Shown piece by piece: positions 50,743 through 63,963 of a DNA stretch of 64,000 nucleotides. The notes under the pieces are model-generated. The model was not told the DNA's origin, made no database searches, and saw nothing but the letters and a program-made list of their open reading frames with translations. Position 1 is the stretch's first letter. Every line of letters begins with the position of its first letter. Made by a program: the position numbers and the translations under genes. Source of the DNA: an uncultured Clostridia bacterium (GTDB lineage Bacteria > Bacillota > Clostridia > Christensenellales > Borkfalkiaceae); NCBI GenBank assembly GCA_944363645.1, contig CALVUR010000001.1, forward strand, positions 248,001 to 312,000, read 5' to 3'.

Positions 50743-53700
50743 TTATGCTTCAACATAGTTGAAAACAAAGGTTGCTTCGGACGAACTTGCCCAACTTGAA
50801 GTTGTGGTTTGTGTCCAGTTTGTAGTTTCTTCTTCGCCGAACATAAAGTATACAGTTTGGTCTTTAGTCCAGTTTAAGAATACATTTGTACCGAAGTAAG
50901 TTTGTGGTGAAGCCTTAAATACAAGTTTTTTAATGCCTGTACAATCTGCAAACGCTTGGTAACCAAGTGAGTCAAGGCTTGATGGTAAAGTGAGTTCTTG
51001 AAGTGATGTACAGCCGTTAAATGCGTTGCTACCGATGATTGCGGTATTGTCTGGCAATACAACGTTTACAAGTGATGTGCAGCCTTGGAATACGCCTGCA
51101 CCCATGCCTTCGAAACCTTCTGGGAAGATAACTTCACGTAAGTTTTCGCAGCCTTTGAAGGTGTATGCCGTTGATGAATATGTCATAGTAGCAGTTGGGC
51201 TTGATTTAAGAGTTTTTACGCCAGATGGGATGGTAAGTGTTTCAAGACCAGATTCGCTGAAGCAGTAAGTACCGATATGTGTCAAAGACTGTGGTAAAGT
51301 GATTGTCCTTAATGATGAGCATCTTTGGAATGTGTAGTTGCCGATTTCGGTAATGCCCTCTTCTAAGGTAACATTTGCTAAACCTGTGCAGTCTTGGAAA
51401 AGGTATGTACCAAGTTTGATTGGTGTGCCTTCGGTATTAACGTTTGCGGGGATACTGATTGAAACTAAGCCATCGCATTTTGAGAATGCGTCGTTGCCAA
51501 TGCTTCTTACGTTTGGACCGATTACAACGCTTACTAAACTGTCTGAATCGTAGAACAAGTAATTTGGAATATCTGTGTCGATATTAACCTTTTGAATTAA
51601 ACTTTGACTGAAGATTGCGGTTGAAGAAGAAGTACCCTTTAACTCTATACCAGCGGGTATTGTAAGTTCGGTAAGACCTGAAAGTTTGAATACGCCGTAG
51701 CCGAGTTGTTCAACCGTGTTAGGAATTTCAAAAGATGTAAGCGATGTACAACGTTCAAATGTGTAACCGCCCAAAAGGGTGATGTTGCCAAGGAATGTAA
51801 CGCTTGTCAATGATGTACAGCCCGAGAACATGTAACCTGATGAATAACTTGAACCAATTTTTGTGATACCAGCCGGGATAGTAATTGAAGTTAAGCCCGT
51901 AGCATCGTAGAATGTGTAATTGTTAAGTACTGTCATGTCGTCAGGTAAAACGATTTGAGTTATCTTATCGCAACCAGCGAAAGCGTAACCACGGATTGTG
52001 TCGCCACTATTTATAGTAATAGTACCGTTATCCCCTGCTAAACTTGCCGGGAAGCAGATAAATTCTTGTGTGCCGTCAGCGTTAGGTACAGAAAGTGCGC
52101 CCGTTACGGCATCTACTTTGAAGTCTGTATTGCCTTCAGCGATAGTAAAGCCTGTAAGTTTTGTGTTGTAAGCAAATGCGCCGTCGCCTATTGAGGATGA
52201 ACCTGAAGATAAGCCTGCTGGGATGGTGTAATTTGTTGTAGCAGTGTCAGCAAACGCCAACTTACCAATTAAAGTAACGGTTTGTGGGATGTCCATTGTA
52301 AGTGAAGAACAGCCGTAGAACACGTAAGCACCAATCTTTGTTACTTCGCCAAGGAACGTAACGCTTGTTAAGTTTTCACAACCGGCAAAAGTGTATGCTG
52401 CGCCCGTTGTTGTACAACTTGTTGCGCTTGTGCCGAGTTCTGTAACGCCATCAGGAATAACGATTGATTGTAAGCCTGAATCACGGAAAGTGGACTGACC
52501 AAGGAATGTAAGTTGCGAACCTTCGCCAAATGTAACAGTTTCTAAAGCGGTACAACCCATAAACATATAGTTACCTAATGCGGTAACGCCATCAGGGATA
52601 GCAATGCTTCTTAAACTTATACATGAGTTTGCTGTTGTGCCGTACCCAGCGAATACATAAGTACCGAATGATACAAGTTGAGAATTTTCGCCGAATGTAA
52701 CAGTTTCTAAAAGTTCACAACCACTGAATGCGTAGTTACCGATCTTTGTAATGCTGTCTGGGATAGCGATTGATGGTAAAGATTTACAATTTGTAAATGT
52801 ATACGATTGAAGTTGAGTTAAGTTTTGTGATAATTTTACGCTTGTTAAGTTTTCACAGCCCATAAATACATATGTGCCGAGTGAGGTAACAGTGTCAGGT
52901 ATCGCAATGCTTTCTAAACTTGTACAATTTTGGAATACATAGTTACCGATTGTCTTTAACTGAGATGCTTCGTCAAAAATTACCGTACGAAGGTTTGCAC
53001 AACCATTAAATATGTAGTTATCAAAAGTGGTGATTGATTGTGGTACAACGAAAGTTTCGATTGCGGTGTTACGGAAAGCACTGTAACCAAACGCTGTAAG
53101 TGTGGTACCTTCTTCAAACACGAAAGACCTAAGTGATGTACAGTTATAGAATGTGTAACCTTGAAGTTTAGTAACCGATTTAGGAATTACGATAGATTCA
53201 AGCGAGATACAAGGTGTATATGTTGTTGAAGTCATGCTTGAATAACCGAACGCATAGTTGCCGATTGTAGTCAAACTTGTGTTGCCGTTTTCGTCCTTTT
53301 CAAAGATTACTTCCCTTAACGCAACGTTACTGATAAATGCGTAAGTACCGATAGTTTTAAGGCTTGAAGGAAGTGAGATTGTTTCAAACGCTGTTTCACG
53401 GAATGCATAGTTGCCGATTGTGGTAAGTTTGCTACCCTTAGCGAATGTAAGTGATGTCAAGTTGTTGCAGAATTCAAATGCAGATGGACCGATTTCAACG
53501 ATATTTGCAGGAATTTCAAATGAAGTTAAGCCCGAGCCGTTGAAGGTGTCTTCTGGGATGGTTGTAAACTGTTCGCTTGTAGGAAGTACAACTTCTTTCA
53601 AGTTTTTACAGTCTTTAAATAATGCAACGCCCACGTGGTCTTGTTTTAAAGCACTTGGTTTTTCCGGGGTGTTTTCAAACACTACCCTTTCCAAACCTTG

Positions 53701-56700
53701 ACAGTTAGCAAATGCGCCGTCGCCAATCTTTTCAACAGTGTAAGGTACGTGGATTTCGGTAATTTTATCTTGACCATCAAATACGTAAGGTGCTATTTCT
53801 AAAATACCTTCTTTAATTTCGAATTTACCTGCCGGCAATGTACCGAAAACGTACAAAATGCCCGTGCCTTCTGCGTTGTAAATGTAAGGTTCACCTCTGA
53901 CTGTCTTAAAGTTTTCATGACTGTCGGGGATGATGATTGTGGTAAGGTTTGGACAATCTTTGAACACGTATTCGATGTTCTTGATTGAGTGTGAAAGTGT
54001 TACGGTGGTTAAGCCGTAGCAATTATAGAACAACCTACCTTTGTAATCAACGTTTGTTGTACCGCCGCCAAGTGCAATGTCGCCACTAATAGATTCCGGG
54101 AAAGTGAAACTTGTCAAAGCGGTGTTTGCAAATGCCTTATAATCGATTTCAACAAGGCTTGTTTTGCCCATATTTTCGCCTTCGGTGAATGTTGCAAAGA
54201 CGATATCACTTAAACTTGTGCAGTTTAAGAATGCGTTGTAACCAATAGAAGTAACAGTTTTTGGTATTACTATCGATGTAAGGGCTTTTAAGCCAGAGAA
54301 TGCGCTGTAGTTAATTGTTTCTAAACCATCTGGTAAGATGATTGTGTGAAGATTTACTGCTCGACTAAAGCAAGATGAAATTGATTTAAGTTTGCTGTTT
54401 TCTGCAAATGTTACTTTTTGTAAGTTTTCGCTGTAGTTGAAAGCAGAGGTCATTGATTTTACGCTTGCAGGAACGACAACTTCTTCAAGATTTGAATAAC
54501 TGAAACCGCCGTAAATTGAATAGCCTGCTTCTGCGGAAGATTCTGGGATGTTTATCGACCTTAAACTCTTACAGCCGTAGAATGTGTAATAGATTGCAGA
54601 ATCGTCATAGTCAGGGCCACGGTCGGCAAGTTTTGAAAGTCCTTCGCCAACAAATTCTACCGTTTCTAAGCCTTCGCAGTAGTAGAATGCACGTGCGCCG
54701 AGATATTCGATTGACATAGGAATTACTACGCGTTTAAGTGTTTGGTTACCGCTTGATGAGTAGCCATACATTAAGTTGTTTGCAATATGTGTTGTCCTTT
54801 GTGGGAAGATAAGTTCTGTAATAGCAGTGTTGCTGAGTGCGCCCGGCGATGCAACTAATGAACTTGAAGAAGTTGATTTTGCGTTTGCAAATACCAATGG
54901 GTTTACATAAGTGCCGTCTGGGTTTTTAGCGTCGTTGCCTTCTTCAAAGGTAATACTTGTGAGTGACGTGCAGTAGTTGAATGCTTTATCGCCTATTTCT
55001 GTTACCGAATTAGGAATAACGATTGATTCTAACGCCTTACAGTAGTAGAAGGCGTACTCGCCAATGCGTGTTACAGTTGACGGAATGGTAATGCTTACAA
55101 GAGATTCGCTGTAATAGAACATTCTGTCAGTGATTTCTGTCAAGCCTTCAGGAAGGTCGATTTTTGAAATTTCACTGCTGTAAAATGCCTGTTCGCCAAA
55201 GATCAAGGTTGCGCCTTGTTCGATGCCTTGACTAAATGTAAGCCTTTCTGCTTGAGAGTAAGCAAATGCCTTTTCACCAATCTTTGTTACGGTGTTAGGA
55301 ATATCAATTACGCCCGTAATTGAAGATGGGCAGAACAACAAGGTAACCAAGTTGCCGTCAGTATCTTTTTCAAATAACATGCCGTTAAGTGAGCCGTAGT
55401 TTGCGTTGCTTTCGCTTATGTTGATTGCACGCAAAACTGATGACGATGTGCCACTAAACATGTTAAAGATGTCTTTTTTGAGTGTTGAGTCGTAACCAAA
55501 TTTGATTGATTGAAGTGTGGATGGTAAACTTACTGTTTCAAGTGAGTTGCAGTAATAGAAAAGTTCTGAACCAACTTGTGTAAGTCTTTCGGGTAAAGTG
55601 ATGTTTTCGATCAATGAGCAGTACGTAAATACGCCATTGCCTAAAACCAATTCACTGCTGCCGCCGTCCTCGAAGATTACGCTTACAAGTTCGTCGCAGT
55701 CATAGAATGCTTCGTCGCCGATAGACGTAACATTTTTGCCGATTACAATACTTGTCAAGCCGTCCCTATCACGGAAAACGTTTGCGCCGATTGAAGTAAG
55801 TGTTTCAGGTGTTACGTATCCGCCATATTTAGCAGATGGGTAGAATAATACGCTTGTAACCAACTTATCGTACACTACGTTATCGATAACAGAGTAGTTT
55901 TCGTTGGTAGGATCTACGTTTACTTTGATTAACTTTGGACCGAAAACGCCGGCAATTTCGATTGCGCTTGCGTTAGGACCAATGTTTAAGGTTGTAACGT
56001 AATACGTTGGGGCTGTTGTTGAAGTGGTAACTGTACCAAATGCGCCCGTTTCAAAACCTGAACAGTCGTAAGAATTTAAGTTTACTGTAAGAAGTTTTGT
56101 ACAGTTGCCGAACGCACCTGCGCCAAGTGATACCAAGTTGCCGGGAAGGGTTACCGTTGTAAACCTATCGTCAGTGATGCCGTAAAAGGCTTCGTTTGCG
56201 ATTGTCAATGGGTTGTCGGTAATTGTACCTAAGAAGTTGATTCTTTCAAGAGCAGTACAAGCACGGAATGCTACTTCGCCGATATATGTAACATAGCCCG
56301 GAATTGTGATTTCGGTAAGTTTTGTGTTGCCGTAGTATGTGAATGGTGTAATGGTTGAAGTTGTGTTTTCAAACCTTGTTGTAAACGCCAAATCACCGAT
56401 ACGTGTTACGCCTGATGGTATTGTGAACTCGCCACCCCTTGCGATTGGGAAGTAAACAAGTGTTACAACGCCCAATTCGTCTTTAGAATATACGATACCG
56501 TCGTCGCTGTAATAATTACCGCCGTCGCCAGAGACGTTTATCGTTGCAAGTTTAGAACAACTTCTAAAGATGTTGCCTGCAAAGTTTGTTAAGCGTGAAG
56601 GAAGTGTTGCTTCAAGCAAGTTTGAACAGATATAGAAGGCTTCTGTTTCAATTTCGAGTGGAACTGCTTCATCGCCTTCTGGGGTTTCTTCAAACACGAC

Positions 56701-59670
56701 TGATGTCAAGTTGGTGTTTGAGTAGAATGCACGGTATTCGATAGATTTTACGCTTGCTGGGAAAACAACTGTGTTGATTTTTGACAAATATTTAAATGTG
56801 TTAGAAGTGATTGTTTCAACGCCGTCAGCGATTACGACAGTACCGGATTTTGCGTAAGGTACAGCGAAAAGTTCAACTGCGTTTGTTACTTCATTGTTTC
56901 TGTAAACGATGCCGTCCACCGACCAATATGGACCAACTTCGCCAGCAGAACTACCTGTTTCGTAAATGTTAATGTTACGAAGTAATGTACAGCCTTGGAA
57001 TGCAGAACCTGTTTGGTTGATACCTTCGATACCAACGAAAATGTATTCGATTGTATCGGGTACATTGATTGTTTCAAGTCTGTTGCATGATGCGAATGCG
57101 CCAGAGTCGATTGTTGTAACCTTTTTACCATTATATGTTGCTGGAATGGTGATTTCGGTTACGAGTGAGATATAATTGCCTGCTGATACTGCATAGCCGT
57201 CGCTTAATTCGTCATAGGTAAATACCAACGCTTCAACGAAGTTAGCGGTAAGTGTTACGTCGCTGATACGGTCGTATTTAGCGAGTGCGTTACCGAGTTC
57301 GTCGGTGTATTTAACTGAACCTAAGTACCAACCGCTAAACGCATAACCGTTTGGCTCGATTTGTGGTACGGGCAAGGTGTATTTTTCGTTGTAGTAAACT
57401 TGGACTGTGTCGGTAAGTTGTTCGCCACCGTCTTCCCAATTAAGTGTTACATTAAAGGGCTTTGGTGTCCAGTTTGCATACATGGTTACGTCATTTTTAA
57501 GTGTAAAGATGCCGTCTTCATATTGCTTACCGTTTGAACTTGCACCGCCAACAGAGTTGTACCAACCGTCAAAGTTGTAACCACCTTTAATGCTTTCAGG
57601 AAGTGTTAAGTGGTCGCCTTCTGCAACGATTTGAGAGTTTACGATTGTACCGCCGTTTGATTCGTAGTAAACGGTGTAAACGCTTACTTCGATTGAAGCA
57701 GCAGTTGAATCGATTTTATTGCCATATGCTGAAACTTGAATGGTGTATTCACCGCTTCTTGTAAAGGTTACGGGGGTGCTATGTGTGCTTGCATCCAAAA
57801 CCATTGGTTCGTTTGTGCCAACGGTTACACGGAATCTTTCTGCACCAAAGACGTTGCCCCAAGTAACTACGCCGTCTTGATATTTAATAAGATCGGCAGT
57901 CATTTTTGCCAAGTTGCTGATTTCAATTTCTTGTGAGTAAAGCGAGGACTTTCCGCCAACTTCAAGTTGGACTTGAACGGTCCATTTATCCATGCCGTCA
58001 AAGTTGCTTTCGTCAAGAACAAGTGAGTTTGTGCTGGTAGAAACAACTTTATCGCCAATTTTAACCTTATATGTTGCGCCTTCAACGTTATCCCAAACGA
58101 GAGTTTTTTCGTTTAACATAATGTTTGTTGGGCATGCCAAAGTGGTTTTTGCGTAAGTTAATGATACGGCATCTGGTGAGTAATAGTTGTTTGCTTTTGG
58201 CTGAACGGAAATTGTAATATCGCCTACGCCATAATCTTTAATTGATATGGTTTGATTTGATACGTGGTGTACCTTTTCGCCGTCAGCAGTAGTAACTGTT
58301 ACCGTGTAACTTGTTGCGTTTTCAACAGCGTCCCATGCAACAATCCCTGTGTCGCCGTCAACTTTTAAGCCTTTAACGCTTTCTAAACCTTGATAGAAGT
58401 TGAAAACTTTTGAGGTTGATGACATGTATCCGCTTGCCGTTGCTGTTACGCTAAAGTTGATACCTTCTGCTTGCATATCGCAGTTTGCGAAGTTGTATGT
58501 TGTGGAATTGCCGTTTGATAGCATTGTGTGCTTGTGGGCTTTGTTTCCGCAGTCGATAGTAATAAGGTATTCTGTTGCGTTTTCAACAGGGTTATAGGTA
58601 AGTGCTGTGCCGTTTGTTACTTGGAAGTTAGATACCCTTGCCAAAACCTTATTTTTTAAGTACGCACTACCCGTTTGTCCCCTATACGATACGTTGATTT
58701 TGTATTCGCCAGCGGGTTGGGATGAAAATGCGTATTCATACTTTGTTGTGGTTGTTGTTTCGGAAACTAAAAGTTCACCGCTTTGTGAATACACATAAAC
58801 GCTGTATGTGCCAAGACCTAAACTGTTCCAACTGATTACATCACCGCTAACAGATACTGTTGGGGCGGAATTTTTCCAGCCGGCAAACAAAATGGTGTCT
58901 TGCTTAATAGTTTGACCTTCATATTTATATGTAAGTTTTGTTGGATCGTCATAATCACTTACGTACCAGCCCAAAAATACCGAAGAATCGGGGTTTTGTG
59001 GGTTTTTAGGCATTGTTACCACGCCGTTTTCCGTTTTTACGGTCGTGATTTCTGCGCCGTCATAGTTTGGGTTGAAGGTAACCATGAATTCAGTTTCTGC
59101 CGCATTGCCGTAAACCGCGTAAAGGGTTAAATCTTCTGTAACCGCTTCACCGTCAAATGAATATGGCATATTGCCCTCTTTATCCTTATACCAGCCGATA
59201 AACGGCTTATTGCCATAGGTTGGATCTTCGGGCTTTGATACCGTTTCGCCGTGGCGTACTTGCTTTGATGCAACAGTTGACCCACCCATTGAATCAAATG
59301 TTACTGTAAAATTTATATCCCTTAGATATCTGTACTCAGTAGACCTAAACGTTACAACAAGTATGTTTTTGCCGTAACTTGCCTGTGCGACTTCGCTTTC
59401 GCCAAATGTCAAGGTAAATTGTGTCGAACTTGACTTTTCTTTGTCGCATGTACCAGATATGGTTTCTTCGCCAAGTACAAGTGTAACAGTTCCCTCATCA
59501 CTAATGGTTAAGGTTGATTCTTCACCATTAACAATGCAGTAATAACTGCCTACCTCGTCGCCTTTTTTAAAGCCACTATCATCATTCTTTGTTTTGCAAC
59601 CAATACTAAATATTGTCGCAAGTGCCATAATAACGGCAAGAAGTATGATATTAGTTTTCTTTGCGTTCAT
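50743..59670 (-). CDS. Giant InlB/Fn3/LRR_5 surface lipoprotein 2
   Basis: A 2,975-residue paralogue of the preceding giant, collinear from signal peptide to C-terminal cap (SPQTYFGTNVF), hence a tandem gene duplication. The lipobox is SIGC (C25), less canonical than in protein 1. Architecture: N-terminal module, two InlB_B repeats, Fn3-like modules, two InlB_B repeats, then about 2,000 residues of LRR_5. The InlB 3-4 and first LRR region is essentially identical to protein 1, while flanking regions differ at many residues, indicating gene conversion. Separate promoter (59737-59766) and terminator allow independent expression. Start supported by AAGGAGGC. The divergence of the LRR tract suggests different ligands. 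Confidence 0.9.
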   Translation of the reverse strand: MNAKKTNIILLAVIMALATIFSIGCKTKNDDSGFKKGDEVGSYYCIVNGEESTLTISDEGTVTLVLGEETISGTCDKEKSSSTQFTLTFGESEVAQASYGKNILVVTFRSTEYRYLRDINFTVTFDSMGGSTVASKQVRHGETVSKPEDPTYGNKPFIGWYKDKEGNMPYSFDGEAVTEDLTLYAVYGNAAETEFMVTFNPNYDGAEITTVKTENGVVTMPKNPQNPDSSVFLGWYVSDYDDPTKLTYKYEGQTIKQDTILFAGWKNSAPTVSVSGDVISWNSLGLGTYSVYVYSQSGELLVSETTTTTKYEYAFSSQPAGEYKINVSYRGQTGSAYLKNKVLARVSNFQVTNGTALTYNPVENATEYLITIDCGNKAHKHTMLSNGNSTTYNFANCDMQAEGINFSVTATASGYMSSTSKVFNFYQGLESVKGLKVDGDTGIVAWDAVENATSYTVTVTTADGEKVHHVSNQTISIKDYGVGDITISVQPKANNYYSPDAVSLTYAKTTLACPTNIMLNEKTLVWDNVEGATYKVKIGDKVVSTSTNSLVLDESNFDGMDKWTVQVQLEVGGKSSLYSQEIEISNLAKMTADLIKYQDGVVTWGNVFGAERFRVTVGTNEPMVLDASTHSTPVTFTRSGEYTIQVSAYGNKIDSTAASIEVSVYTVYYESNGGTIVNSQIVAEGDHLTLPESIKGGYNFDGWYNSVGGASSNGKQYEDGIFTLKNDVTMYANWTPKPFNVTLNWEDGGEQLTDTVQVYYNEKYTLPVPQIEPNGYAFSGWYLGSVKYTDELGNALAKYDRISDVTLTANFVEALVFTYDELSDGYAVSAGNYISLVTEITIPATYNGKKVTTIDSGAFASCNRLETINVPDTIEYIFVGIEGINQTGSAFQGCTLLRNINIYETGSSAGEVGPYWSVDGIVYRNNEVTNAVELFAVPYAKSGTVVIADGVETITSNTFKYLSKINTVVFPASVKSIEYRAFYSNTNLTSVVFEETPEGDEAVPLEIETEAFYICSNLLEATLPSRLTNFAGNIFRSCSKLATINVSGDGGNYYSDDGIVYSKDELGVVTLVYFPIARGGEFTIPSGVTRIGDLAFTTRFENTTSTITPFTYYGNTKLTEITIPGYVTYIGEVAFRACTALERINFLGTITDNPLTIANEAFYGITDDRFTTVTLPGNLVSLGAGAFGNCTKLLTVNLNSYDCSGFETGAFGTVTTSTTAPTYYVTTLNIGPNASAIEIAGVFGPKLIKVNVDPTNENYSVIDNVVYDKLVTSVLFYPSAKYGGYVTPETLTSIGANVFRDRDGLTSIVIGKNVTSIGDEAFYDCDELVSVIFEDGGSSELVLGNGVFTYCSLIENITLPERLTQVGSELFYYCNSLETVSLPSTLQSIKFGYDSTLKKDIFNMFSGTSSSVLRAINISESNANYGSLNGMLFEKDTDGNLVTLLFCPSSITGVIDIPNTVTKIGEKAFAYSQAERLTFSQGIEQGATLIFGEQAFYSSEISKIDLPEGLTEITDRMFYYSESLVSITIPSTVTRIGEYAFYYCKALESIVIPNSVTEIGDKAFNYCTSLTSITFEEGNDAKNPDGTYVNPLVFANAKSTSSSSLVASPGALSNTAITELIFPQRTTHIANNLMYGYSSSGNQTLKRVVIPMSIEYLGARAFYYCEGLETVEFVGEGLSKLADRGPDYDDSAIYYTFYGCKSLRSINIPESSAEAGYSIYGGFSYSNLEEVVVPASVKSMTSAFNYSENLQKVTFAENSKLKSISSCFSRAVNLHTIILPDGLETINYSAFSGLKALTSIVIPKTVTSIGYNAFLNCTSLSDIVFATFTEGENMGKTSLVEIDYKAFANTALTSFTFPESISGDIALGGGTTNVDYKGRLFYNCYGLTTVTLSHSIKNIEYVFKDCPNLTTIIIPDSHENFKTVRGEPYIYNAEGTGILYVFGTLPAGKFEIKEGILEIAPYVFDGQDKITEIHVPYTVEKIGDGAFANCQGLERVVFENTPEKPSALKQDHVGVALFKDCKNLKEVVLPTSEQFTTIPEDTFNGSGLTSFEIPANIVEIGPSAFEFCNNLTSLTFAKGSKLTTIGNYAFRETAFETISLPSSLKTIGTYAFISNVALREVIFEKDENGNTSLTTIGNYAFGYSSMTSTTYTPCISLESIVIPKSVTKLQGYTFYNCTSLRSFVFEEGTTLTAFGYSAFRNTAIETFVVPQSITTFDNYIFNGCANLRTVIFDEASQLKTIGNYVFQNCTSLESIAIPDTVTSLGTYVFMGCENLTSVKLSQNLTQLQSYTFTNCKSLPSIAIPDSITKIGNYAFSGCELLETVTFGENSQLVSFGTYVFAGYGTTANSCISLRSIAIPDGVTALGNYMFMGCTALETVTFGEGSQLTFLGQSTFRDSGLQSIVIPDGVTELGTSATSCTTTGAAYTFAGCENLTSVTFLGEVTKIGAYVFYGCSSLTMDIPQTVTLIGKLAFADTATTNYTIPAGLSSGSSSIGDGAFAYNTKLTGFTIAEGNTDFKVDAVTGALSVPNADGTQEFICFPASLAGDNGTITINSGDTIRGYAFAGCDKITQIVLPDDMTVLNNYTFYDATGLTSITIPAGITKIGSSYSSGYMFSGCTSLTSVTFLGNITLLGGYTFERCTSLTSFEIPNTVEQLGYGVFKLSGLTELTIPAGIELKGTSSSTAIFSQSLIQKVNIDTDIPNYLFYDSDSLVSVVIGPNVRSIGNDAFSKCDGLVSISIPANVNTEGTPIKLGTYLFQDCTGLANVTLEEGITEIGNYTFQRCSSLRTITLPQSLTHIGTYCFSESGLETLTIPSGVKTLKSSPTATMTYSSTAYTFKGCENLREVIFPEGFEGMGAGVFQGCTSLVNVVLPDNTAIIGSNAFNGCTSLQELTLPSSLDSLGYQAFADCTGIKKLVFKASPQTYFGTNVFLNWTKDQTVYFMFGEEETTNWTQTTTSSWASSSEATFVFNYVEA
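57012..57478 (-). repeat. Near-identical tract shared by the giant genes (second copy)
   Basis: Corresponds to 47341-47807 at a constant offset of 9,671 bp. By eye only two differences occur up to 57060, and none in the 419 bp between about 57059 and 57478. Flanks differ at ten or more of 60 positions. Confidence 0.85.
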
Positions 59671-60821: not shown

Positions 60822-61088
60822 TTAATCTTCCTTTAAAAATTTGCGATAGCCATTGCCTTGCTTAACGCATTTTGAAACCCTTGAAAGCGTTGCGGATGAG
60901 ATATCTGTTTCCTTTATAACGTTTTCATAAGTTTCCCCTTTAAGTAAAAGTTCAGCAGAATACACCCTTTGCGCCATCTGTTCTATCTCACGATAAGTGC
61001 AAAGGTCTTTAAAAAAATCTTTACATTCTTGCACGGTGTTAAGTTTTATAATCGTTTCGTACAACTTGTTTACATGGTTATTTTTCAT
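60822..61088 (-). CDS. yerC: YerC/YecD-type TrpR-related regulator
   Basis: An 88-residue TrpR-like protein. The order of helices and the segment LCTYREIEQMAQRVYSAELL, then a helix-turn-helix with ETDISSATLSRVSKCV, match the YerC/YecD family of TrpR relatives. It should be a small DNA-binding dimer that may sense an amino acid. It starts 39 bp after the ATPase gene with AAAGGTGG, so it is the last gene of the importer operon. Regulation of that operon, through the inverted repeats at 63743-63804, is a reasonable inference; the ligand is unknown. Confidence 0.9.
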   Translation of the reverse strand: MKNNHVNKLYETIIKLNTVQECKDFFKDLCTYREIEQMAQRVYSAELLLKGETYENVIKETDISSATLSRVSKCVKQGNGYRKFLKED

Positions 61089-61127: not shown

Positions 61128-61970
61128 CTATTTATTATAACCTTGTAAAAATTGCTTTGTCAACTGATTTTTAGGATTATTGAACACTTCTTTTGGTGAA
61201 CCGCACTCAATTATGTTGCCATTTGCCATAAAAACTACCTTATCTGATATGTTTTTAGCAAATTCCATTTCGTGCGTTACGATTATCATTGTAATGTTTT
61301 CTTTTTCTTTTAATTCCCTTATAACCTTTAAAACTTCGCCGGTAAGTTCTGGATCTAATGCGCTTGTTGGCTCATCTAAACATAAGATTTTTGGCTTTAA
61401 CGCAAGTGCCCTTGCAATGGCAACACGCTGACACTGACCGCCACTTAACTGGTGGGGGTAACTTTGCATTTTGTCTTTAAGTCCCATTTTTTCGAGCACT
61501 GATATGCAGTATTCTTCGGTCGCCTTCAAATTTTCTTTTAAATAAGCGTTTACCATTTCTTTTAACTTTTTACCTTTAACGCCCTGACTTTTTAAACTTT
61601 TTTTGTAGGCTTTTGCCTCACGGTTTACCTTAATTTTGGGTGCAAAGTCCACATTTTTTAACACATTTTTTTGTGGAATCAAATAAAAGTTTTGAAAGAC
61701 CAAACCAAAGTTTGAACGTTTATCTGAAAGTGCGCTTTCCTTTAATTTGCTATCACGCACGCCGTCAAAAAGCAATTTGTCTTCCAAATAAATTTGACCG
61801 CTGTCTAAACTTTCCAAAAAAGTAAGGCAATTTAAAAGTGTGGACTTGCCACTACCGGAAGAGCCAATTATTGATAAAACTTCCCCTTTTTCTATATCAA
61901 AGGATATGCCCTTTAAAACTTCTAAGTCGTTAAACTTTTTCTTAAAATCTTTTACCTGTAAATATGCCAT
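61128..61970 (-). CDS. Polar amino-acid ABC transporter ATP-binding protein
   Basis: A 280-residue GlnQ/HisP-type ATPase. Walker A GSSGSGKST is at 36-44, the Q-loop LVFQNFYLIPQ, the signature LSGGQCQR, Walker B ILCLDEPTSALDPE and the switch VTHEMEF are intact. It is about 40 residues longer than usual because of a Lys-rich insertion between the Q-loop and the signature (around 112-155, beginning KIKVNREAKAYK). It starts 6 bp after the permease stop with GTGAGGG and energises uptake by the permease and binding protein encoded before it. Confidence 0.93.
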   Translation of the reverse strand: MAYLQVKDFKKKFNDLEVLKGISFDIEKGEVLSIIGSSGSGKSTLLNCLTFLESLDSGQIYLEDKLLFDGVRDSKLKESALSDKRSNFGLVFQNFYLIPQKNVLKNVDFAPKIKVNREAKAYKKSLKSQGVKGKKLKEMVNAYLKENLKATEEYCISVLEKMGLKDKMQSYPHQLSGGQCQRVAIARALALKPKILCLDEPTSALDPELTGEVLKVIRELKEKENITMIIVTHEMEFAKNISDKVVFMANGNIIECGSPKEVFNNPKNQLTKQFLQGYNK

Positions 61971-61976
61971 AAGCCC

Positions 61977-62675
61977 TCACGATTTAAAATAGTCAAGCCT
62001 TTTTTCCACTTGATTGAAAATAAGTGTAAGTACGCCAACGAAAATCAAGTAAAATACGCCCGTGTAAAATAATGGCCAAATTAAACCCTTACTTGACATG
62101 ATGTCTGCAACTTTTATTATTTCGATTACGCCAATTACCCTTGCAAGTGCAGTATCTTTTACAAGGGTAATGATTTCGTTTGCGGTGGGTGGAACGATGC
62201 GTTTTATAACTTGAAGTAAAACGATTTTACTGAAAATTTGATATTTAGTAAGCCCAAGCATTTTGCCAGCCTTATATTGACCTTGACTTATGCTTTCAAT
62301 ACCGCCACGGAAAATTTCGGAAAAATAGCAAGCGTAATTTATGACAAAAGCGATAAGTGTTGCGATAAAACAGCCAACGTTGTCTATGCCATAATTAAAG
62401 TAAAATGTGTTGTCAATGTTGCCCCAAAATGAAAGTGAACTGTTGCTTAAAATGCCCGGAAGATAGTAAATCATAAATAGTTGCAACATAAGGGGTATGC
62501 CACGAATGATCCATACAAATACTTTAAAGACCGCTTTTATGGGCTTAAATTTACTCATTGTGCAAAAGGATATCAAAAGCCCAAGCGGTAATGAAAATAT
62601 AAGCGTTAATATAAATAGTAGGCAGGTTACACCAAAGCCTTCTAATAATTGTAATGTAACAGAAATAAAGTCCAT
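61977..62675 (-). CDS. Polar amino-acid ABC transporter permease
   Basis: A 232-residue HisMQ-type permease with about five transmembrane helices. The segment GGIESISQGQYKAGKMLGL, the EAA-loop equivalent that docks the ATPase, is clear, and ANEIITLVKDTALARVIGVIEI follows it, both typical of the family. A single permease gene is present, so a homodimer channel is expected. Ribosome binding is weak (AAGATAA). A 207-bp gap holding two repeat copies separates it from the binding-protein gene, which may lower its expression relative to that gene. Confidence 0.93.
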   Translation of the reverse strand: MDFISVTLQLLEGFGVTCLLFILTLIFSLPLGLLISFCTMSKFKPIKAVFKVFVWIIRGIPLMLQLFMIYYLPGILSNSSLSFWGNIDNTFYFNYGIDNVGCFIATLIAFVINYACYFSEIFRGGIESISQGQYKAGKMLGLTKYQIFSKIVLLQVIKRIVPPTANEIITLVKDTALARVIGVIEIIKVADIMSSKGLIWPLFYTGVFYLIFVGVLTLIFNQVEKRLDYFKS

Positions 62676-62882: not shown

Positions 62883-63704
62883 TTATTTTGCTTCTGATAG
62901 GTCAATATACGCTTTTTCTAAACCATATTTAATAGCCAATTCTTCAAGTTGACCTGTTTTTGAAAATGCGGTAAGCATAATGTTTACCTTATCACGAAGT
63001 GCTGCGCCTTCTTCTGTTTTAGCAAAACCGATTGCGTAATATTCTTCACTTGTTTCAAAGCCTTCGTTAAGTGCTAATGCGGTGAAGTTACCTTTGCCAC
63101 AAATACGGCTTGCCAAAAGTAAATCGACAATGGCGTATTGACTTGTGCCGGAGTTTACTTCTTTAATGGCGTCCATTTGTGATGCAACTGCTTTTTTGTT
63201 TGCGCCTTCGATATCTTTAACTAAATCTTCAGCGGCTGAACCACTTTCAAACGCAACAGTTTTGCCAGCAAAGTCCGCACTTGTTGCGATGTCGGGTGTA
63301 CCTGACTTTTTAACGATACATTGCTTGTTTATCATATAGTTATATGAAAAGTTTACAAGTTCTGCCCTTGGTGTGCCGTCGTCTTCAGAGTTTGAAGTGA
63401 AACCGTTCCACAAACAGTCTACTGTGCCGGCGGAAAGTTCGTTATACTTATTTGACCAGTCGATAAGTTTAAACCTTACGTCATAACCGAGCGCATTGAA
63501 AACCATAAGCGCAAGTTCGGTATCAAAGCCCTTTAAAACGCCGTCTTCGGTGTAGTTCATTGGCTCGTAATCGGTATAAGCAACGGTGATTGTTTTTGTC
63601 TTATAATCAATTACGCCCTCGCCTTTTTCACCACATGCGGTAAATGAAAGCGTTAAACTTAAAAGCATCATAATACTTACTAACAAAATTAAAAACTTTT
63701 TCAT
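62883..63704 (-). CDS. Polar amino-acid ABC transporter substrate-binding lipoprotein
   Basis: A 273-residue family 3 binding protein. Lipobox FTAC (C24) predicts a membrane-tethered lipoprotein. The motifs ITVAYTDYEPMNYTEDGVLKGFDTELA and VDCLWNGFTSNSEDD match the ligand cleft of the family; the specific amino acid cannot be read. Its first-gene position and its own strong promoter explain likely excess over the permease. RBS AAGGGC. Confidence 0.93.
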   Translation of the reverse strand: MKKFLILLVSIMMLLSLTLSFTACGEKGEGVIDYKTKTITVAYTDYEPMNYTEDGVLKGFDTELALMVFNALGYDVRFKLIDWSNKYNELSAGTVDCLWNGFTSNSEDDGTPRAELVNFSYNYMINKQCIVKKSGTPDIATSADFAGKTVAFESGSAAEDLVKDIEGANKKAVASQMDAIKEVNSGTSQYAIVDLLLASRICGKGNFTALALNEGFETSEEYYAIGFAKTEEGAALRDKVNIMLTAFSKTGQLEELAIKYGLEKAYIDLSEAK

Positions 63705-63742
63705 AATTTAGCCCTTTTTATCTGTAATTTTGAGATTATTTT

Positions 63743-63770
63743 TACTTTATCACTTTAATTTGATAAAGTA
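63743..63770. promoter_or_regulatory. Operator candidate downstream of the importer promoter
   Basis: TACTTTATCA (63743-63752) and TGATAAAGTA (63761-63770) are perfect 10-bp arms with 8 bp between, just after the expected transcription start. A bound repressor dimer would block initiation or elongation. A shared half site recurs inside the promoter. Confidence 0.65.
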
Positions 63771-63781
63771 ATTATGACAAC

Positions 63782-63810
63782 ATTATACTTTATCGTACTA
63801 AAGTTGTAAA
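63782..63810 (-). promoter_or_regulatory. Promoter of the amino-acid importer operon
   Basis: Minus-strand TTTACA (63805-63810) and TATAAT (63782-63787), spacer 17. ACTTTA (63787-63792) and TAAAGT (63799-63804) form an inverted repeat filling the spacer, with the same half site as the operator at 63743. Confidence 0.8.
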
Positions 63811-63963
63811 GCGTTTTTTAGCACTTTTTTAAAATTTTTAAATTTTTTTTGAATTTGGGAATTTTGTCGCCTATTTAATAAACAAGTTTGATATTTATAT
63901 AAAAAATCATTATATAAAAAGGGCAACACCAAAAAAGCATTGACCCTTACTAAACAAAAAATG

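Follow-up and report, generated by a model that had tools for sequence, protein, structure and literature searches.

A probable HisR-autoregulated histidine importer operon, with operator half-sites interleaved with its promoter, in an uncultured clostridial bacterium

The window analyzed here, a 64,000-nucleotide stretch of DNA from an uncultured clostridial bacterium, carries a four-gene minus-strand operon (63704 to 60822) encoding a substrate-binding lipoprotein (SBP), a permease, an ATPase, and an 88-amino-acid TrpR-family protein:

62883 to 63704, minus strand: substrate-binding lipoprotein, HisX-like (PF00497; best PDB sequence matches 3hv1 and the histidine-bound 4ohn)
61977 to 62675, minus strand: amino acid ABC permease, HisY-like (PF00528; TIGR01726 above cut-off)
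61128 to 61970, minus strand: amino acid ABC ATPase, HisZ*-like (PF00005)
60822 to 61088, minus strand: YerC/HisR, TrpR-family repressor, last gene of the operon (TIGR02531, PF01371)

The SBP, permease, and ATPase together form an importer of the polar amino acid family (PF00497, PF00528, PF00005). An earlier note on this DNA had taken the last gene to encode a TrpR-like YerC protein, and profile searches bear this out, the product scoring 79.4 bits against the YerC/YecD model TIGR02531 (cut-off, 42.2) and 69.4 against PF01371 (cut-off, 27). Against the TrpR equivalog model TIGR01321 it scored 22.4 bits and did not reach the cut-off of 67.25. On either side of the operon lie two other minus-strand features. 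Downstream, one open reading frame of 2,975 amino acids (50743 to 59670) begins like a lipoprotein and contains many leucine-rich-like repeats; by eye it is BspA-like. A strong terminator-like hairpin (9 pairs plus a T run, 63989 to 63967) lies just upstream of the importer promoter and presumably ends the preceding minus-strand gene.

The importer promoter was the top match of a promoter scan (11/12), and the inverted repeats that the earlier note had placed around it are present where that note put them. One is a perfect repeat, TTACTTTATCA / TGATAAAGTAA, occupying 63742 to 63752 and 63761 to 63771; it had been described as having 10-bp arms, but its arms are 11 nt long and are separated by a loop of 8 nt. 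The other, ACTTTATCGTACTAAAGT (63787 to 63804), fits exactly between the minus-strand −35 and −10 boxes, just as had been claimed. Each repeat turns out to be part of an array of three half-sites. When half-sites are read as CACTTTA/TAAAGTG with at most one mismatch, two mirror-image arrays emerge, a promoter array at 63786 to 63813 (minus strand) and a downstream array at 63743 to 63770 (about +5 to +32). The location given earlier for the whole feature (63743 to 63810) thus holds, but not its end, which lies three bases further, at 63813. The elements are as follows:

63782 to 63787, minus strand: −10 box TATAAT of the importer promoter (promoter scan; match to the promoter cassette described below at 63782 to 63811, 0 mismatches)
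63805 to 63810, minus strand: −35 box TTTACA, 17-bp spacer (promoter scan)
63743 to 63749, plus strand: HisR half-site TACTTTA, left, downstream array (6/7 matches to CACTTTA)
63751 to 63757, plus strand: HisR half-site CACTTTA, left, downstream array, 8 bp from the one at 63743 (7/7)
63764 to 63770, plus strand: HisR half-site TAAAGTA, right, downstream array, forming an N6 dyad with 63751 to 63757 and an N14 dyad with 63743 to 63749 (6/7; inverted repeat 63742 to 63771)
63786 to 63792, plus strand: HisR half-site TACTTTA, left, promoter array, abutting and overlapping the −10 box (6/7)
63799 to 63805, plus strand: HisR half-site TAAAGTT, right, promoter array, forming a 6-N6-6 dyad with 63786 to 63792 (6/7)
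63807 to 63813, plus strand: HisR half-site TAAAGCG, right, promoter array, 8 bp from the one at 63799 and overlapping the −35 box (6/7)

The 7-mers start at 63743, 63751, and 63764 and at 63786, 63799, and 63807, and each array consists of two like-oriented half-sites 8 bp apart with a third facing them across a 6-bp gap. The 6-N6-6 dyads are centered at 63760.5 (downstream array) and 63795.5 (promoter array); in the downstream array, the perfect loop-of-8 repeat corresponds to the outer pair (N14), and the inner two half-sites make up the usual N6 dyad. In an intergenic region this AT rich, a perfect arm of 11 nt is by itself only moderately unusual (17 of 1,000 dinucleotide shuffles reach it), but three-half-site arrays in 8-bp register did not arise in a single one of 5,000 such shuffles (0/5,000). 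Exact ACTTTA-N6-TAAAGT occurs twice in the whole 1.50-Mb genome, both times at the importer promoter.

The histidine repressor HisR is encoded by yerC in Bacillus subtilis, and Ashniev et al. (2022; PMC9413887) published its operator consensus as cacTTTAnnnnnnTAAAgtg and also reported histidine-dependent DNA binding in vitro by HisR of Ruminococcus gnavus. The two sites in the window match this consensus at 13/14 and 12/14 positions.

If the repeats are operators of the operon's own YerC, they should persist where the linkage persists, and the earlier note had named their absence from relatives that keep yerC next to the importer as the observation that would count against it. In a search of 121 related genomes, YerC turned up in 81, at 87 distinct loci: importer-linked ones with yerC in last place (31 complete, one cut), his operon-linked ones with yerC in first place (27), and others. 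Sites matching the consensus at 11/14 or better lie upstream of 28 of 30 importer-yerC operons (locus L041, with 31 bases to scan, was left out) and of 25 of 27 yerC-his operons in these relatives. By shuffling, sites pass P ≤ 0.05 at 27/30 importer loci (3/30 being above that level), 24/27 his loci, and 10/29 other YerC loci. In named genomes, most of them Clostridia assembled from animal gut metagenomes, a separate scan found a site at 44 of 51 further importer-yerC loci; left out of the 80 named loci were 10 duplicates, two cut importers, and two importers too short to score (L230 and L232). The proposal thus survives the check that the earlier note had set for it. Across the class, a site of at least 11/14 is present in 25 of the 30 hisZ upstream regions that scored best in a 291-genome search.

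The promoter itself recurs as a 30-base cassette, CTTTAC-N2-CTTTA-N6-TAAAGTATAAT, in which the −35, the spacer, and the −10 all carry half-sites. With at most one mismatch, it is present in 33 of the 81 genomes with YerC and in none of 40 genomes without it (Fisher P = 1.4e-7). The informative part of this count is the 0/40, since the same loci had served to derive the cassette. These observations bear on whether the repeats might be operators of some other regulator, or hairpins of a leader RNA, with the yerC linkage being incidental. The downstream repeat could indeed fold as an AU-rich hairpin in the 5′ leader, but the promoter array lies upstream of the start site and so cannot act as RNA, no Rfam match was found at the operator within a 12-kb stretch around it, and the cassette tracks YerC across genomes, equals the HisR consensus, and occurs before importer and his operons alike. 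We regard this explanation as highly improbable. A T-box or other leader RNA was likewise considered and rejected, the Rfam search having returned no match except one tRNA in L097, outside the window. Comparative genomics (consensus match, recurrence, and the distribution of the cassette) thus gives good support to the earlier proposal that the repeats are YerC operators and that the operon may be autoregulated by an imported amino acid.

The arrangement of half-sites is itself conserved. In a scan of spacers from 0 to 18 between half-sites, the only peaks were N6 and N14 (28 and 29 of 30 importer loci, respectively, and 25 and 24 of 27 his loci), no other spacer exceeding 10 loci. Like-oriented half-sites 8 bp apart occur at 20/30 importer, 13/27 his, and 38/51 new importer loci, and half-sites are repeated at 8 bp in 14 of the best 30 class-wide hisZ regions; for these sets, shuffles gave 0.0 to 0.2 loci. 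Two separate arrays per promoter are found at 16/30 and 26/51 importer loci. It could be argued that only the two 20-bp palindromes matter and that AT-rich promoter sequence produced the third half-site of each array incidentally, given that the outer half-site of the promoter cassette overlaps the −35 box and that a 20-bp site with one palindrome is enough for R. gnavus HisR to bind in vitro (PMC9413887), which means that arrays are not required for binding. We consider this unlikely. The 8-bp repeats are also frequent in hisZ regions that are not fused to a −10 (14/30), and because just 1/30 of the class loci has a −10-like hexamer after the site, promoter overlap does not account for the register. 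Moreover, the −35 of the cassettes is TTTACA 45 times and TTGACA twice, whereas other promoters in the same DNA have TTTACA 33 times and TTGACA 49 times.

A precedent for such a register exists in TrpR, whose tandem dimers have an 8-bp geometry; the tandem binding itself was reportedly described by Lawson and Carey in 1993. The Escherichia coli trp operator also overlaps its promoter, and the present arrays can be likened to it in both respects. E. coli TrpR and the window's protein share PF01371 and conserved Ala, Thr, and Arg residues of the recognition helix, but they differ in half-site (GNACT versus TAAAGTG here), in probable ligand, and in that the TIGR01321 cut-off is not reached here. 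An 8-bp spacer between TrpR half-sites is cited in PMC9413887; PMC7518442 and PMC4139847 contain no passage on tandem TrpR binding. From the half-site register and the TrpR precedent we infer that HisR, too, may bind in tandem.

The YerC proteins of these relatives fall into two lineages. In a tree of 87 rows and few columns (rooted at the midpoint for drawing only), a branch with support of 100/99 separates 41 canonical rows, with no importer-linked copy among them, from the other 46. The latter take in all 32 importer-linked copies, 11 copies that head his operons, and the window's own YerC. The recognition-helix sequence SSATLSRVS is nearly fixed in the importer- and his-linked members of this divergent lineage. 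Position 27, a putative ligand-side acidic residue, is Glu in 33/41 canonical HisR proteins; it is Lys in the window's YerC and mixed in its lineage. Two genomes join the his operon to the importer. G003, of the same genus as the source bacterium, has a yerC-hisZ-hisG-hisD-hisC-hisB-hisH-hisA-hisF-(hisI) operon (names read from gene order, with hisD confirmed) preceded by the cassette with 0 mismatches, and its unlinked importer has a 13/14 site. G077 has the cassette with 0 mismatches before both its his operon and its importer. Each of these genomes has one YerC, with sites at the his operon and at an importer unlinked to it. More broadly, 9/11 testable unlinked importers have a site, counting those of G081 and G023 without a shuffle test, and those of G088 and G098 have none. 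Among the 12 loci sampled, G057 and G107 were picked for their cassette, G012, G077, and G081 had also shown a cassette, and G091 is cut before its first gene; among the nine picked from a permease search, 7 have a site, in a sample that leaves out further permease matches of at least 40% identity (e.g., in G086, G093, G094, and G097).

An importer-linked YerC might be expected to control a distant his operon as well, but the six testable genomes of the family do not bear this out. In these six, all with importer-linked YerC (G016, G027, G033, G053, G059, and G069), no site was found before the separate his operon (0/6), and an Rfam search found no T-box there; a seventh genome, G010, stands outside this count, its contig starting at hisG. 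The six operons (L107 in G033, L108 in G027, L110 in G016, L142 in G053, L143 in G059, and L144 in G069) run hisZ-hisG-hisD-hisB-hisH-hisA-hisF, with hisC absent from its usual place and with neither a HisR site nor a T-box despite the presence of YerC. The order-level relative G120, with an importer-linked YerC, has a site before its distant his operon, as does the his operon of G114, whose YerC is not importer-linked. Control his operons in genomes without YerC had a site in 0/8 cases. Seven genomes carry two YerC proteins: in each, the his operon begins with a canonical copy and the importer operon closes with a divergent one, and the operator half-sites of the two are similar (locus pairs L051/L052, L061/L099, L063/L064, L068/L069, L072/L100, L081/L098, and L082/L103), and it is possible that the two copies engage in cross-talk or respond to different ligands. 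In G006, of the same genus as the source bacterium, a long-branch YerC-like protein (L045) is encoded near two ATPase genes with no HisR site upstream and is possibly a re-specialized or decaying copy.

Taking the arrays and the lineages together, we hold with moderate confidence that HisR operators across Clostridia are half-site arrays in a strict 8-bp register that HisR would occupy as side-by-side dimers, like TrpR, and that a second, divergent HisR lineage travels with a histidine importer whose promoter −35, spacer, and −10 are themselves built of operator half-sites.

As to the amino acid sensed, histidine, not tryptophan, is most likely, judging from the same YerC lineage heading his operons in relatives, including a species of the same genus. 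Tryptophan was rejected as the ligand: the TIGR01321 score is far below cut-off, and the operator is the HisR motif and not that of TrpR. The two top PDB sequence matches of the SBP are 3hv1 and then 4ohn; the title of the latter entry reads "with Bound Histidine", and it shares an IDW..K..EL..GT.D..WNG signature with the SBP (no paper naming 4OHN was among the literature matches listed). The predicted SBP model (pLDDT, 92.1) resembles Lys/Arg/Orn and Gln binders just as closely, and the fold therefore does not decide the ligand. Neither hisD nor hisG turned up in the genome, whose completeness is 94.6%, and the source bacterium is therefore probably a histidine auxotroph. In a tally of 73 family genomes, importer-linked YerC showed no association with histidine auxotrophy, hisD being kept in 14 and absent in 16 of the genomes that have such a YerC.

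Given the siteless his operons, the lack of a tie to hisD loss, the genomes with both lineages, and the variable position 27, the ligand may have changed in some members of the divergent lineage. There is a parallel in HisR2 of Enterococcus, for which re-specialization to tyrosine has been proposed (PMC9413887). It is conceivable that YerC proteins of the divergent lineage are HisR paralogs re-specialized to the cargo of the importer, e.g., a basic amino acid, while keeping the same operator. The 100/99 split from canonical HisR, the seven genomes carrying both lineages, the six his operons without a site, and an SBP fold that is also near Lys/Arg/Orn- and Gln-binding proteins would all fit. 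However, eleven members of this very lineage head his operons, in G003 and in G077 a single YerC has sites at the his operon and the importer alike, and histidine-bound 4OHN, which carries the same IDWxxKxxEL-WNG signature, is among the sequences closest to the SBP. Re-specialization thus seems to us quite unlikely, even more so than the dismissal of the third half-site considered above, and histidine remains the preferred ligand.

We consider it quite probable that the locus of this uncultured clostridial bacterium is a histidine importer operon, hisX-hisY-hisZ*-hisR, that HisR autoregulates. What the DNA of the window and of its relatives directly displays is the arrays, their overlap with the promoter, the operon, the recurrence of the sites with YerC, and the co-occurrence with his operons. 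Binding by the window's YerC and the role of histidine as co-repressor are what we infer from these. The anatomy of the locus, together with the precedents of R. gnavus HisR and TrpR, suggests that control is by repression and that tandem occupancy is cooperative. With ample histidine, HisR (YerC) dimers loaded with it would sit on the two arrays of TAAAGTG-type half-sites. Because the promoter array places half-sites on the −35 box, within the spacer, and next to the −10 box, it would exclude RNA polymerase, and the downstream array would act as a second block. The 8-bp steps would allow two or more dimers to lie side by side, as in TrpR, perhaps sharpening the response. When histidine drops, the dimers would come off, and the importer and its own repressor would be made together.

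The HisR/YerC system itself has been known since 2022 (PMC9413887). As described there, HisR targets include hisXYZ* and hisR, and the regulons of Firmicutes have in common with the present locus a TrpR-family YerC, the operator cacTTTAnnnnnnTAAAgtg, control of the his operon and the hisXYZ* importer, and autoregulation. The main text of that paper describes a 20-bp palindrome, whereas the predicted operators here are three-half-site arrays in 8-bp register that are fused to the promoter and number two per promoter, and the regulator comes from a divergent lineage holding all 32 importer-linked copies in our tree. The closest counterpart reported there is the hisXYZ*-hisR operon of Acholeplasma laidlawii, likewise an importer operon with hisR in a histidine auxotroph with a site upstream, but with a single reported site where we find two arrays, in an arrangement that dozens of uncultured Clostridia share. 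Our comparison with PMC9413887 covers its main text, where "tandem" and "cooperat" appear only in connection with other matters, and the tandem 8-bp array, the operator-promoter fusion, and the divergent, largely importer-borne HisR lineage seem to be undescribed in it.

What had been a possible YerC operator thereby becomes a specific histidine switch, open to testing, in uncultured Clostridia of the gut, and the results support HisR as a histidine sensor in a lineage where the importer itself carries HisR. Arrays of half-sites at 8-bp steps explain the odd nested repeats at this promoter and predict tandem HisR binding, and their architecture should help to detect HisR sites that searches with a single palindrome score as weak.
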